Virus record (IMG/VR): IMGVR_UViG_3300007734_000991
Span: 1-64,000 of that record
Direction: 5' to 3' (one strand)
DNA: 64,000 nucleotides
Origin: a virus
Positions 27,341 to 36,719 of this stretch are shown piece by piece. Numbering within the stretch: the stretch's first letter is position 1; the number at the start of each line of letters is the position of its first letter. Below the pieces are notes generated by a model, which was not told the DNA's origin, did no database searches, and was given only the letters and a program-made list of their open reading frames with translations. The position numbers and the translations under genes are program-made.

Positions 27341-28321
27341 ATGCCCATTAATAAAGACCTACAGCCGATTGAACTACCCATGGAATTAAAGTTCGGACGA
27401 CCTGTTCGCACCAAGTTCCATAATAATATTGATGCACTAAAGATTGAGCTCGTCGACCATCCTGCGCGTCAACAAGCATGGAACGTCGCTTGGCATTATG
27501 TTAAGGCAACTTGGGCAGATAGACCTGACATCTCGCCTGAGTCTGTATCGCATCGAGAACTTTCTAAAAACCTGGAAGATGTTTTCGGAGGCCGCACTCT
27601 GCCAGCGCCCATGGAATGTCTTGGCTTCACATTTAGATTAAGTGGTATGTCTTTTCAAGAGGTGACTCATATTATCAGACATCGTGCAGGAACTTTTGCT
27701 GCACAATGCACAGGCGATCGTGACCTCCGAGATGATGATGCAGTAATTCCAGAACCCGTAGAGAATTCACCTGAGTTCTTAGCGCGCTGGAAGAAGATTG
27801 TGGAAGATTCCAAGCAACTCTATGCTGATATGACTGATTCAAAGGTTGTGTCCATGATGGACGCACGTTTGATTCTACCAAAGTGCATGACGTCTTTCTA
27901 CTACATGCGACTTCCTCTCAAGGAGCTAATTGGCTTCATCTATCAACGTCAGGATAGGCAGATTCAGACGTCAGCTGATAATATTCTGGCAGCACGCATG
28001 GCAGTTGAGGTGGCTAAGGTCATTCCTGAGTTCACTACGCTAGTTGATTTCAACAAGCCTGACATGCACTACATCAAGACCTTCCGCGTGAAGGAAGGTG
28101 ATAAGTTCGTGTCTCGCGGAACGAACCTCTATTGGCCGGAACCCAAGAACGACAAGTTTGAGTTCCACCCAGATGACACTATCTACCAGGCTCGCCGTGA
28201 AGAGCTCAACGGCACGCATGGTGATGGCCCACAGCGAAAGTTTGTAGCTGCCTGGGATTCTGCAGTGTCCGAGTTTGAGAGTATTAAAAAGCAACACAAT
28301 GATTGGAAGGAAGGTAAATAA
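27341..28321 (+). CDS. Divergent ThyX-family protein
   Basis: 326 residues, longer than ThyX. The ThyX fold is recognisable from FRLSGMSFQEVTHIIRHRAG (residues 98-117) and LPLKELIGFIYQRQDRQIQT, but the substrate motif reads RHRAGTFAAQCTGDR: the Ser that contacts dUMP in classical ThyX is Cys123, and the following Arg is displaced. The C-terminal ~80 residues (from KTFRVKEGDKF) are an addition I do not recognise. A canonical ThyX already exists at 15724, so this one may act on another nucleotide or do another one-carbon reaction. It has a good ribosome site. Confidence 0.7.
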   Translation: MPINKDLQPIELPMELKFGRPVRTKFHNNIDALKIELVDHPARQQAWNVAWHYVKATWADRPDISPESVSHRELSKNLEDVFGGRTLPAPMECLGFTFRLSGMSFQEVTHIIRHRAGTFAAQCTGDRDLRDDDAVIPEPVENSPEFLARWKKIVEDSKQLYADMTDSKVVSMMDARLILPKCMTSFYYMRLPLKELIGFIYQRQDRQIQTSADNILAARMAVEVAKVIPEFTTLVDFNKPDMHYIKTFRVKEGDKFVSRGTNLYWPEPKNDKFEFHPDDTIYQARREELNGTHGDGPQRKFVAAWDSAVSEFESIKKQHNDWKEGK

Positions 28322-28363: not shown

Positions 28364-28543
28364 ATGAAACAATCGAAGATCTCGGTCGATGAAGAGACCC
28401 ATAAATTGCTGAAGATATACTGTGCTCAGCACGGTCTGATTATGAGTCAGTTCACCGCCGAGATCATTCGAGAGAGGATTGGCAATGAAAGAGAAGATCT
28501 GCGCACAATGCGAAAAGAAATTTGTGCCAAAGAATCCATTTAG
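28364..28543 (+). CDS. Ribbon-helix-helix (CopG/Arc-like) protein
   Basis: 59 residues. The pattern KQSKISVDEETHKLLKIYCAQH followed by MSQFTAEIIRERI is the beta strand-helix-helix of RHH DNA-binding dimers. Its last 59 bases overlap the homing endonuclease gene in another frame, so the C-terminus may have been shaped when the endonuclease inserted. ATG 28364 follows ACGGAGATAAG. Probably a small transcription regulator or antitoxin-like protein; no toxin partner is obvious. Confidence 0.6.
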   Translation: MKQSKISVDEETHKLLKIYCAQHGLIMSQFTAEIIRERIGNEREDLRTMRKEICAKESI

Positions 28544-29378
28544 TAATAAGTCTGGTTTCTTCTTTTGCTCGAAAGAGTGCACTTATCTTGCTCAGAAGAA
28601 GGGCGGTGTCACATATGAGCTCCGTCGAAAGAGGTCACTAGAGAAGCACGGCACCGACTTTCCAATGTCTTGCCCTGAGATAAAGAATAAGCGCAGCAAC
28701 AACAACATAAAAAAGTACGGTGTTGCCAGCACGTTTGAACTTGATTCAGTCAAAGAGAAGTCAAAAAAGACTTCACGTGAGAAATATGGGGTTGATGTTT
28801 ACTCACAAACAACAGAATTCAAGTCCAAGATCGAAGAGACAAATCTAAAGAGATTCGGACATAAGTCTCCGATAGAAAATCCCAACATTCTAGAACGACG
28901 ACGGCAGACAATGATCGACAGATGGGGAGGTCCATCAACTTTCGAATCACCTGTTCTACGAGCTCGCGCTGAAGATACCTGTATTGAAAAGTTCGGAGTT
29001 CATAATATTGTCTTATCGCCGACGTTTATCTCTTCTTCCATGGATAAGAAACTGCTCAAATCACATGGAAAAACTTGGCAGCAGTACATCGATGACCTAC
29101 CTGAATTTCAGGATTATCGAAGAAAAGTCGATCACTTTACACGCATGCAGCCGATCGAACAGCTAGCCAATCATGATAAACGTGGTGAATATCATCTCGA
29201 TCACAAGTTTTCAGTCGCTGAAGGGTTTAGACAAGGTCTACCACCCGAGGTGATAGGTCACATTGTGAATCTGGAATTCATACCGGCTGCAGAAAATCTT
29301 CGAAAACAGTCAAGTTGTTCAATTGACAAAGACGCATTACTATCAGAATACTCAACTAGAAAGGTAAATCAAAGATGA
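28485..29378 (+). CDS. HNH homing endonuclease with EKYGV-type DNA-binding repeats
   Basis: 297 residues. It begins with a CxxC...C zinc-type segment (KICAQCEKKF, FFCSKECTY). Then about six ~35-residue repeats each with a KYGV/KFGV-like signature (IKKYGVAST, REKYGVDVY, LKRFGHKSP, IEKFGVHNI), which in phage homing nucleases are DNA-binding modules. The C-terminus carries a His-rich nuclease core, YHLDHKFSVAEG and HIVNLEFIPAAENL. ATG 28485 with GAGAGGATT upstream was preferred over TTG 28479. It overlaps the RHH gene upstream and, by ATGA, the deoxyribosyltransferase downstream, as expected of a free-standing mobile gene. Confidence 0.85.
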   Translation: MKEKICAQCEKKFVPKNPFSNKSGFFFCSKECTYLAQKKGGVTYELRRKRSLEKHGTDFPMSCPEIKNKRSNNNIKKYGVASTFELDSVKEKSKKTSREKYGVDVYSQTTEFKSKIEETNLKRFGHKSPIENPNILERRRQTMIDRWGGPSTFESPVLRARAEDTCIEKFGVHNIVLSPTFISSSMDKKLLKSHGKTWQQYIDDLPEFQDYRRKVDHFTRMQPIEQLANHDKRGEYHLDHKFSVAEGFRQGLPPEVIGHIVNLEFIPAAENLRKQSSCSIDKDALLSEYSTRKVNQR

Positions 29379-32086: not shown

Positions 32087-32188
32087 CGTGTAAATAACTA
32101 GTATGTGTGTGATGTTCTCCATATTTATAATGAGTCTCGAGAAAAGATACGGCCTTGTGCCGTAACTATTTGACCACCGGAGGAAACA

Positions 32189-33082
32189 ATGGAGAGTAAA
32201 TGTGAAGTTTGCGGAATTAGCATAGAATCAAAACCAAGACTACGTACTTGTTCAAAAAAATGCGGTTACGTGTTGAGAAGTCGTACTAGAAATATAAAAC
32301 ATGAGCCTGTTGAAAAGATATGTCTCGACTGCGAGTGTAATTTTCAAGATACTTCAAAAAAGAAGTTAGTCGTTAGATGCAAACCATGCATAAACAATTC
32401 CATGGTTGCTACACGTTACGCAAGAGGAAGCTATGAGCGCTCAGAAGAGCAGAACGAGAAATTGTCTATTACGCTTAAGACAAAGTACGAATCAGGATGG
32501 AACCCTAACACTGAAGAGCATCGAGAAAAATTATCCGAGGGAATGAAGGCTCGCTGGCAAGATGGTTCAATGAGAAAGAAGTCGGTTGCAACAACGCTTG
32601 AAAAGTATGGAGTTGAGCACTGGGCGCAGTCTGAAGAAGGAAAGACAGTGCTATCACAGAGGTCAAGAGGCAGAAAATTTTCTGATGAAACTCGTAAAAA
32701 TATGAGTCAAGGCGCTGCAAGGCGCATTAGAGAGAATAATAATCATTATGAACGAGGTAATGGAGGTTTTAGAGAAGACCTCGGACACTATGTACGGAGT
32801 AACTGGGAAGCTAATTTTGCTAGAATATTAAAAATTCAAGGAAAGTCTTACGAATACGAACCTAAGACATTTCAAATTGCTGAGGATAAAACGTATACAC
32901 CCGATTTTCTTGTCGATGGTATTTTCTACGAAGTTAAAGGCTATTGGACCGAAAAATCGAAACTTAAATTAGAATCATTTGTAAAAATATATCCCGAAAT
33001 AGAATTGCAAATCATCGACGGCACAAAGTACAATGAGCTTAGAGAAGCTTACCAAGATCTAATTCACTGGGAAGGCAAATAA
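32189..33082 (+). CDS. Free-standing homing endonuclease (NUMOD3/VSR-like)
   Basis: 297 residues. An N-terminal zinc-type segment (CEVCGISIESKPRLRTCSKKC and CLDCEC...CKPC), NUMOD3-like DNA-binding helices (EEHREKLSEGMKARW, DETRKNMSQGAARR), and a C-terminal PD-(D/E)xK-type nuclease fold (TYTPDFLVDGIFYEVKGYW). This build is found in phage homing endonucleases related to Vsr. It ends three bases before the dnaE start, whose metal-binding motif is interrupted 97 nt further on. Such genes usually cut the neighbouring gene in strains that lack them. Confidence 0.82.
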   Translation: MESKCEVCGISIESKPRLRTCSKKCGYVLRSRTRNIKHEPVEKICLDCECNFQDTSKKKLVVRCKPCINNSMVATRYARGSYERSEEQNEKLSITLKTKYESGWNPNTEEHREKLSEGMKARWQDGSMRKKSVATTLEKYGVEHWAQSEEGKTVLSQRSRGRKFSDETRKNMSQGAARRIRENNNHYERGNGGFREDLGHYVRSNWEANFARILKIQGKSYEYEPKTFQIAEDKTYTPDFLVDGIFYEVKGYWTEKSKLKLESFVKIYPEIELQIIDGTKYNELREAYQDLIHWEGK

Positions 33083-33085
33083 TAA

Positions 33086-36000
33086 ATGAACAGCACAAAG
33101 GAGAAGAGCTACTTGAAGCTTGAGTCCGTGCGACCTCCTACTCGGTTTGTGGGGTTTCACGCGCACTCAGGCTTCTCGTAAAGTTACGACATTTGACGGT
33201 TTGGGTTACCCTGCAGATCACATTGCCTTTGTCACCTCTGAGTCACAAGGCATGGATGCCTGGGCACTGACAGATCACGGCAATGGCAACGGACTTGCAC
33301 ACGCACATTCTGCTGCCAAGAAGATTCAGAAGAAAGGTGTGAAGTATCGACAGCTCTACGGCGTGGAGTTCTACTTCGTTCCTTCACTTTCGCAGTGGCG
33401 TATCGATTACGAGGCCCACAAGCAATCAGTCAAGGACGCGAAGTCTGCAGCTGAGGCTGAGAAGAAAGCAAAGATTCGAACTGACATCGACGCTGACGAG
33501 GCAGCAGAGGAAGAGGAGGCCGGTGGCCACGTCGTGGAGGATGAGGCAGAGACGAAGGCCGACGACTACAAGGAGAAGCCTGACTGGCAGCGTCGTTACC
33601 ACCTCGTGGCAGTGGCGCAGTCAGCTGAGGGGCTCGCGAACATCAACCGTCTCGTCAAGGCATCATTTAAAGACGGATTCTACCGTTATCCACGCATCGA
33701 CTTCGACCTCCTCAGAAAGTGGGGCAAAGGGATCGTGTGGTCGAGCGCCTGCCTCGGCGGAACAATGGCGGGTACAATTCTACGAGGCGTAGCACATAAT
33801 AGAACTTCTGAGCAAATTATTGCTGATCTTGAAGTTCTCACAGGTCAGTTCGTCGAAGCAGTCGGCCAAGAGAACTTCTTCCTCGAACTGCAATTCAATA
33901 AGCTCGAGAAACAACACACCGTAAACAAGTACCTCATCGACCTGTCTCGAAAGACCGGTGTGAAGCTGCTGGCCACATGCGACTCTCACTATCCAGATCC
34001 CTCAAAGTGGCAGGCCCGTGAGCTCTACAAGAAGCTGGGCTGGATGGGCACGAAGCTAGACGAGCAAGCACTACCGAAGTTCGAGGACCTGAAGTGCGAG
34101 CTGTATCCCAAGAACGCTACCCAGATGTGGGACGAGTTCAAGAAGTCCTACGAACAGTACGACTTCTACAAGGGTTCCGAGGAGGAAGTTCGTGACGCGA
34201 TCGAGCGGACTCACGACGTCGCTTGGCAGCATTGCGAGGACACTTGGGTCGATGTGAAACCAAAGCTGCCCAAGGTCGACACACCAGAAAAAACAGCATT
34301 CCAGCAGCTCACTGAGCTTGTTAAAGAAGGTCTTACCCGCGAAGGTCTTGCTGATAAGCCTGAGTATGTCGATCGAGCTAAATATGAGCTCGGAGACATC
34401 AAATATCTGAATTGTGCTTCTTACTTCATTACGATGTATAAAGTGTTCAATCTTGCGAAGGAGAAGACGCTCTTTGGAAGCGGCCGCGGGAGTGGTGCGG
34501 GATCGCTCGTCAACTTCCTGTTAGGCATCACGCAGATCGATCCGATACCATACGGTTTGCTTTGGAGCAGATTTTTAGGACGACACCGAGTGAGCTTTCC
34601 GGATATCGATACAGACGCAGGTGACAGGGATGTCCTTATCGATGCGGCACGAACTCTGTTCGGCGATGACGCCGTGATCCCGGTGTCCAACTTCAACACC
34701 CTGAAGCTTAAGTCCCTCGTCAAGGACATCGCCAAGATCTACGGCGTGCCCTTCGAGGAGGTGAACGAGATGACCGGCCCTCTCCAGGACGAGGTGATGC
34801 CGCTGGCTCGAGACGAGGACCAGGAGAAGTCGGTCTTCGTGCTGAAGCATGAGGACTGCATGAAGTACTCGCCGAAGTACACGGCCTTCATGGAGAAGTA
34901 TCCTGACGTTGCTGCACACGTCGAGACACTGTTCATGCAGAACAGGTCCATCGGAAGGCATGCAGGAGGCGTACTCTTAGCAGATCCTGAAGATCTTGCT
35001 GCAAACATGCCTATCATTGGCGTCAGAGGCGAGCTGCAGACACCGTGGACAGAGGGTATGAACTTCCGCAATCTGGAGGATAACGGCTTCTTGAAGTTTG
35101 ACTTCCTAGGTCTCACGCTTCTCAAAGATGTCGAGAACTGCATTAGACGCATTCTCATCAAGAATGGCAATCTTGATCCTACCTTCCTGGACATTAGAGG
35201 CTTCTTCGACAAGCATCTAAACTGTCGATACGTGAAGCAGGACGATCCTGCTGTGTGGAAGCATGTCTACCAGGACGGCTCGTTTGTGTCAGTCTTCCAG
35301 ATGACTGCAGAGGGTGCTCGGAAGTTCTGCAAGGCAGTTAAACCGACGAAGATCGAAGACCTCACAGCTATTACAGCGATCTACCGCCCTGGGCCTCTCA
35401 AAGCAAACGTGCACAACCTCTTTGTCGAAGCTAGAAAGCTTGACAAGATCAATTACCCACACCCAATCATCGAGCAAGTCCTTGGACCTACGAAAAATTT
35501 CGTTGTGTATCAGGAACAATTTATGTTGTTAGCAGAAAAACTAGGTGGCTTTACACCTGGTGAAGCTGATCAGCTGCGCAAGACGCTAGTTAAGAAGTCG
35601 CTTGACACGCTGGACAAAAAGTCATCAGAGAAGGAGCTTGCTAAGCAGAAGTTTATTGAGGGTGCTCAGCGACTTCACGGAGTTCCTCCAGAAGTGACCG
35701 AGCCTCTTTGGCAAACAATTGACAACATGAGCGTCTATTGTTTCAATAAATCCCACAGTTTAGCATATGCTATCGATTCCTACTATGCAGCATGGCTTCA
35801 TACACACTACGAGAAAGAGTGGCTGGCAACTGCACTTCAATCAGCTTCCAGCAACCCAAAAGAACTTGCGAAGACGATCTCCGAGATCAAGGCGTTAGGC
35901 TTCAAGTTCTCGAAGCACGACATCAACTACTCGGACAAGGAGTGGCAGTTCTCTGAGGAGGCCGATGCTTTCGTGCCGCCTCTCGGTTCAGTGAAGGGAA

Positions 36001-36719
36001 TTGGATCTGCAGCAGTTGAAGAGATCATGGCGAACAGGCCCTACAAGGATCTAGCTACTATGCTCTATGACGACGCAGGTGAGTGGCGACACAGCAAGGT
36101 GAACAAGACAGCTCTGTCAGCTCTTTGCAAGATTGATGCGCTTTCTTCTTTGGAAGATTTTAATCTAGGTAGAGTTAATAATCATAAGCAACTTCTAATG
36201 GCTTTGACAGATGACAAGAATTACGAGATGCTTCGACGTGGTCTCTACGGCCTGACTGCATCGCAGCTGAAGAAGAAAGCTAAGGCCGGCGAAAAGATCG
36301 AAGCTTTCTTGGATCTAATGCTTACATCGCTAACAAATGTCGAAGATTGGTCTCGAGAAGAAAAGATTGAGATGTGTCAAGATTTAACACAATCTGTGGA
36401 CACTGACCTGCTGTTTCCTCCCGCAGTCATGGAAAAGATTGCAGAAAAAAATGTTCCAAAACTTCATGATGTACCAGCAGGGGCTGAGGGAATAGGATGG
36501 TTCTGCGTTGCTGAAATTCAAATGAAGAAAACTAAGAATGGTAAAGTTTTCTATCGAATTAAAGCAACAGACGATGAACATCGAACAGCTTGGGTTAGAG
36601 CATGGGGAACTCCAAAGGAAGAAATTCGTCCATACACACTTTGGGTTGCTCAAGTTCAAAATGATCCAAACTGGGGATTCTCAACGTCTGTGTATAAGAT
36701 GCGTGAACTAGTTGGGTGA
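33086..36719 (+). CDS. dnaE: DNA polymerase III alpha subunit (family C), reading frame disrupted near the start
   Basis: Replicative polymerase. The main frame (about 33189-36719) carries family C features: PHP remainder WALTDHGNGNG, GRGSGAGSLVNFLLGITQID, FPDIDTD with two catalytic Asp, LKFDFLGLTLL with the third, and KSHSLAYAIDSYYAAW. A long acidic Lys/Glu insert lies in the PHP domain. The natural N-terminus is in another frame: ATG 33086 reads to PTRFVGFHAHSGFS, the first PHP metal motif, and then meets TAA at 33179. The homologous TFDGLGYP resumes at 33189, 10 nt later. The gene is therefore recoded, broken or mis-sequenced. The only in-frame starts otherwise are a TTG at 33120 with an unrelated N-terminus. 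Confidence 0.85.
33179..33188 (+). other. 10-nt interruption in dnaE (stop codon, frame change)
   Basis: TAAAGTTACG separates ...HSGFS from TFDGLG. It begins with a stop codon right after the UCG Ser codon. Its last triplet is ACG, which shares two of three bases with the UCG codon before the stop. Removing exactly these 10 nt restores the frame and the expected PHP sequence. Seen directly in sequence; the mechanism is unknown. Confidence 0.7.

Follow-up and report, generated by a model that had tools for sequence, protein, structure and literature searches.

The dnaE locus and the gene upstream of it

The window, that is, the whole stretch of DNA analyzed here, covers positions 1 to 64,000 of an uncultured virus record with a length of 69,812 bases. 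Its plus strand carries a dnaE gene in two reading frames. An ATG at 33086 opens a 5' frame of 31 codons (33086..33178) that reads MNSTKEKSYLKLESVRPPTRFVGFHAHSGFS and runs into a TAA (33179-33181) directly after HAHSGFS. This frame, recognized as an ORF and by purifying selection between interrupted relatives, is a replacement 5' end with an N-terminal extension and the HAHSGFS metal motif. The 3' frame (33189..36719) begins at an ACA codon at 33189, continues with TFDGLGYP and is open as far as the stop codon at 36717-36719. It was identified from the ORF, Pfam and relatives as DNA polymerase III alpha (1176 aa from the resume codon), and Pfam detects PHP, polymerase III alpha NTPase, finger and HHH domains in it. 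The two frames are separated by 10 nt, TAAAGTTACG (33179..33188), which start with the stop codon and place the downstream part in the +1 frame; sequence and family comparison indicate that this is very probably a bypassed gap. The sequence bears out the preliminary description of the break (ATG 33086, TAA 33179 and out-of-frame resumption at 33189). No tRNA, and hence no phage-encoded tRNASer, was found within the window.

A homing-endonuclease-like gene of 297 aa (32189..33082, plus strand) ends 3 nt ahead of the dnaE ATG. Its identification is based on the ORF, Pfam and homologues located upstream of other interrupted dnaE genes. The C-terminal half of the protein is T7 endonuclease I/PD-(D/E)XK-like, with an E-value of 9e-7 for Pfam Phage_endo_I, just under the cut-off of that family, and the N-terminal half is zinc-finger-like. 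An adjacent homing endonuclease had been proposed earlier, with T4 gene 60 as the model; the ORF at 32189-33082 agrees with this proposal, but the protein is of the Phage_endo_I-like, PD-(D/E)XK type and not of the T4 Mob (HNH) type. A second DUF7487/treble-clef-like ORF, possibly also homing-endonuclease-like, occurs in the window at 28479-29378, just downstream of a ThyX-like gene (27341-28321).

Weak similarity in sequence comparison suggests TAGTATGTGTGTGAT (32099..32113, plus strand) as a possible left end of an inserted element. A motif containing TAGTATG is present at this end in the window (at 32099) and in L012, L014, L031, L078, L092, L101, L103 and L143. It is mostly located 30-90 nt before the endonuclease gene and, in relatives, comes after a remnant of dnaE.

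Interrupted dnaE genes and the inserted element

Comparison with related phages, which had been recommended as a check, showed that a gap opening with a stop codon occurs at the same PHP-motif site in at least 42 IMG/VR phage contigs, in 23 distinct combinations of take-off codon and gap (hereafter, types). A first search for DnaE relatives yielded 80 loci, about a dozen of which had a stop-led insert at the exact site; the total of 42 combines DnaE searches, fixed-length pattern scans and an endonuclease search. The gaps are 5, 7, 8, 9, 10, 11, 12, 38 or 42 nt long and, with two exceptions that lie three codons away, occur at the identical codon. Each of the three stop codons is found as a gap opener, and a change in the genetic code was rejected on this ground.

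About 63 and 141 relatives in two sets are uninterrupted and, rare length variants aside, have one fixed spacing across the site. Skipping the gap reproduces this spacing, shared by essentially all uninterrupted relatives, and gives normal length in every type. The frame in which the two parts join varies by type (+0, +1 or +2), and in 11 of the 23 types the joining frame contains at least one stop codon. Pairs of interrupted genes show purifying selection on either side of the gap, and the downstream frames are open, barring introns or inteins at other sites. A DnaE tree built on query-anchored alignments has at least 12 changes between the interrupted and uninterrupted states on well-supported branches.

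Among INPHARED cultured phages there was no close relative of either DnaE or the endonuclease, and among genome contigs we found no relative of DnaE and only distant relatives of the endonuclease. Matches in Microbacterium phages were set aside, as the dnaE split is of another kind there; in phage DannyDe (L109, 1510-3129), dnaE is annotated as genes 57 and 58, approximately 10 nt apart. A search of the open-access literature, with subscription papers outside its scope, found no earlier report of the dnaE gap.

Other irregularities were observed in dnaE genes of this collection. In L130 (1400-1450), where dnaE adjoins a related endonuclease, the sequence SLGDGIGMP that comes after HSTF is displaced by one base (ACC TTT C TCG) and no stop codon intervenes, which represents either a +1 slip or a sequencing error. 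In L077 (5001-8470), pieces in frames 0 and 2 abut near query residue 723, either through a sequencing error or at another recoding site. Large insertions (introns or inteins) are located near query residues 188, 435, 468 and 865 in L044, L055-L057, L070, L075, L079, L094, L101 and L102, indicating that dnaE has been invaded at several conserved sites.

Endonuclease-derived sequence lies less than 200 nt upstream in 30 of the 42 interrupted contigs, and the endonuclease was not found in the remaining 12. In the first set of relatives, it was upstream of 20 of 29 interrupted genes versus none of 63 uninterrupted ones (Fisher 1e-13). In some contigs (L022, L023, L044, L079 and L268) it is truncated or broken. 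When L070 is compared with L010, a close relative that lacks the element, homology ends before the endonuclease gene and returns in the first dnaE codons. In several clades, part of the original 5' end of dnaE has survived upstream of the endonuclease or its former place (L012, L014, L031, L078, L092, L101-L103, L083, L115, L127 and L128), although it is missing in the window. Because these remnants are cut at the gap site or within a few codons of it, we conclude that the element was inserted into dnaE at the PHP motif, supplying a second 5' end. The link to a homing endonuclease made in the preliminary description is thereby upheld, and it can be stated more precisely: the endonuclease element entered dnaE at this very position. 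Its patchy distribution and its integration in a conserved gene characterize the endonuclease as part of a homing cassette.

Related endonucleases of the wider family are also found directly upstream of uninterrupted dnaE (L113, L126, L131, L132, L134-L137, L139-L141, L144 and L149). A strict rule that an upstream endonuclease implies a gap was therefore dropped, and the gap is not obligatory for tolerating an endonuclease.

Putative take-off and landing codons and the hairpin

In the window, comparison across the 23 gap types assigns the take-off codon to TCG (Ser; 33176..33178, plus strand), and the family rule described here assigns the landing triplet to ACG (33186..33188, plus strand), which is the same as TCG at positions 2 and 3. 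A match at two of three bases had been pointed out for this gene before; it holds in the window, but is better described as a family-wide rule. In 23 of 23 types the stop codon is directly 3' of the take-off codon, and in 23 of 23 the last triplet of the gap equals the take-off codon at two or more of three bases. The same match test at offsets of -3, -2, -1, +1, +2 and +3 was satisfied by 0, 0, 1, 1, 7 and 0 types, respectively. Since gap types of one clade are not mutually independent, we attach no exact probability to this match. The match is exact in 5 of the 23 types. Where the first base is mismatched, the third is always matched (9/9), and TCG/ACG in the window is one such case; the first-base mismatch itself counts against bypassing in the window. 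In L127, the usual TCN take-off codon is replaced by AGT, and the gap likewise ends in AGT. Re-pairing of a single tRNA would call for triplets matched in this way. The resume codons vary (ACA, GTA, GCT, GGT, ATT and others) and provide no consistent start codon.

In addition, every interrupted gene has a 5' arm just downstream of its start codon that can pair with the codons ending at the take-off site. In the window, fold and covariation support a hairpin of the 5' arm GAAGCTTGAGT (33115..33125, plus strand) and the 3' arm ACTCAGGCTTC (33165..33175, plus strand), the end of which adjoins the take-off codon. An internal Shine-Dalgarno-like AGGAG is located 5' of this hairpin (33099..33103, plus strand), and GGAG or a close variant is similarly placed in 24 of 25 representatives. 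Helix length is 7-17 bp in the interrupted genes (median fold z of -3.9 in 42 contigs) and a median of 6 bp in uninterrupted genes (median fold z of +0.64 in 139 contigs); the corresponding medians in the first set were -4.5 for 29 interrupted genes versus +0.5 for 63 uninterrupted ones. The window's own fold is moderate, with z between -1.7 and -3.4 depending on the stretch used.

Covariation was assessed on 20 distinct arm pairs. The score was 0.656 versus 0.211 in shuffles, none of 500 of which scored as high. All of these sequences form the central six pairs, which occur in up to four pair types each; when the arms are slid out of register, only 36-52% pairing is left. L083 and L085 differ by a compensatory change between arm and gap. 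The hairpin is kept in contigs that lack the endonuclease gene (L085, L087, L054 and L220) and is absent from uninterrupted dnaE beside an endonuclease; the latter indicates that the hairpin tracks the gap and not the endonuclease. The two long gaps, in L054 (38 nt) and L220 (42 nt), contain near-perfect internal hairpins, which would leave about 11-12 nt to cross. In addition, minimum-energy folding alone predicts a small hairpin, TCGTA-AAGT-TACGA, over the take-off codon, stop codon and gap of the window (33176..33189, plus strand), which may correspond to the take-off/A-site stem-loop of T4 gene 60; it is not conserved across the family, and gaps of the L012 type form pairs with the 5' arm.

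Proposed programmed bypassing, its alternatives and known counterparts

We consider it very probable, from comparison of these metagenomic sequences, that dnaE holds a programmed ribosomal bypass element that is part of a homing-endonuclease insertion. The element consists of the endonuclease gene and a replacement dnaE 5' end with GGAG, hairpin and a short stop-led gap. As in a bypassed gene, two frame segments of one protein flank an apparently untranslated gap, and ungapped homologues provide the reference. Bypassing, the reading favored in the preliminary description, is the only single mechanism that fits all 23 gap types; three joining frames, the landing match and a hairpin confined to interrupted genes support it inferentially.

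In the proposed mechanism, tRNASer would occupy the take-off codon in the P site with the stop codon in the A site, and the peptidyl-tRNA would let go. The hairpin would then close behind the ribosome while mRNA emerges from the exit channel, driving or rectifying a forward slide of 5-12 nt; the internal hairpins of the 38- and 42-nt gaps would reduce the distance there to 11-12 nt. The internal GGAG may help place the ribosome. Finally, the tRNA would re-pair at the landing triplet, and translation would resume at ACA (T-F-D-G) to give DnaE of normal length. The gap and the recoded codons would protect the carrier genome from the endonuclease, as the target of the enzyme would not be rebuilt. 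With self-cutting prevented in this way, the element could spread without killing an essential gene.

Of the other explanations, a plain +1 frameshift at the stop codon, similar to those of antizyme and RF2 and reading S-K-V-T-T-F-D, is unlikely, with relatives expressed by readthrough or other shifts. The window gap does have a +1 offset and is open in the +1 frame (AAA GTT ACG), as are several further 10-nt and 7-nt types, and the suggestion of such a shift in the preliminary description is possible for the window alone. It fails for several relatives: L070, L082 and L128 have a stop codon in the +1 frame, the 9-, 12- and 42-nt types would need readthrough of at least one stop codon, and the 5-, 8-, 11- and 38-nt types would need a +2 shift. 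Shifts or readthrough would also add 1-4 residues to a loop of near-fixed length among relatives, and a +1 shift leaves the landing-triplet rule unexplained.

Less likely again is a split dnaE, in which translation terminates at the stop codon and a separate initiation or re-initiation yields an N-truncated DnaE, the 31-codon peptide being lost or complementing in trans. Phage polymerase and topoisomerase genes that are split next to homing endonucleases have been described (PMC2988022), and formation of the hairpin would bring GGAG close to the resume site. However, the resume point lacks a consistent start codon, both the HxH codons ahead of the gap and the frame they lie in are conserved and show purifying selection, and neither the landing rule nor the adjacency of the stop codon would have a reason.

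The inverted arms might instead serve DNA recognition, as a target or binding site of the endonuclease, and not translation. The arms do accompany an endonuclease whose fold belongs to the Holliday-junction-resolvase class, but we regard this as very unlikely, since the hairpin persists, with the compensatory change between L083 and L085, where the endonuclease gene is absent, is missing where an endonuclease adjoins uninterrupted dnaE, and would in this role leave DnaE unexplained. A decaying pseudogene or an assembly error, of either of which a frame break with a stop codon is the usual sign, is hardly credible: the sequencing error considered earlier is excluded by recurrence in independent metagenomes (42 contigs with many differing gap sequences), and purifying selection on either side of the gap contradicts a pseudogene, as do open downstream frames (introns and inteins at other sites aside) and the covarying hairpin.

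Programmed ribosomal bypassing has so far been described for T4 gene 60, yeast mitochondria and a few candidates, and to our knowledge T4 gene 60 is its only firmly known case in phages. The bypass proposed for dnaE shares with gene 60 a stop codon directly 3' of the take-off codon, a take-off codon that resembles the landing codon, a non-coding, out-of-frame gap, a 5' stem-loop upstream of the take-off codon and a homing endonuclease gene nearby (PMC11194080 and the T4 record). For the T4 stem-loop, refolding at the mRNA exit has been proposed to drive or rectify the slide (PMC5009743, PMC11194080). The differences are that gene 60 has a 50-nt gap and matched GGA codons, whereas dnaE has gaps of 5-12 nt (or 38/42 nt with an internal hairpin) and Ser codons, often with mismatched landing triplets; and that the 3' arm of the dnaE hairpin, unlike that of gene 60, reaches the take-off codon. 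The gene and the endonuclease family are also different, and dnaE offers tens of natural variants. The KKYK nascent-peptide signal of gene 60 is absent from the N-terminal sequence of DnaE in the window, and we therefore do not file dnaE as a member of the gene 60 family; the dnaE gap would work like gene 60 bypassing but is not homologous to it. In T4 gene 60 (L370), we noticed a possible 10-bp pairing of TGTTCGTCGT at -76 with ACGATGGATA at the take-off site; its geometry is like that of the dnaE hairpin, and it is outside the minimum-energy fold.

The mobA/gene 60 region likewise has an endonuclease beside a gene with a bypassed gap, which has been proposed to protect from cleavage (PMC5009743, PMC2988022). 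The dnaE element, unlike that region, brings a replacement 5' end and leaves remnants of the original 5' end upstream. In mitochondrial mRNAs of Magnusiomyces capitatus, short inserts are also skipped, sometimes with an imperfect match of take-off and landing (PMC5009743), but there 81 inserts are crossed by mitochondrial ribosomes, seemingly independent of mRNA context, in contrast to the dnaE gap, which is confined to a single site of one phage gene family and has a conserved hairpin. Synthetic stop hops in E. coli lead from a codon over a stop codon to a matching codon a few nt on (cited in PMC5009743); the dnaE case is natural, conserved and accompanied by RNA structure. No natural in-frame stop hops were known as of a 2016 review (PMC5009743), and the 9-, 12- and 42-nt types would be such hops. 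A group I intron with a homing endonuclease similarly places an endonuclease gene at a conserved site of an essential gene; in dnaE, only 5-42 nt separate the coding parts, and the site has no Rfam match to a group I intron.

On balance, we favor the view that these genes represent a class of mobile elements that use translation the way mobile introns use splicing: insertion driven by an endonuclease would provide a replacement gene start, ribosomes would hop over the scar with the help of a hairpin that zips at the exit, the host gene would work, and the cleavage site would not be rebuilt. The natural variation in gap, codon and hairpin, which comprises at least 23 variants, may allow rules for take-off, sliding and landing to be read from evolution and tested directly. 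Gene callers will mis-annotate every such interrupted dnaE. The element also illustrates a way in which a selfish endonuclease could enter a polymerase gene at its catalytic motif with neither intron nor intein.
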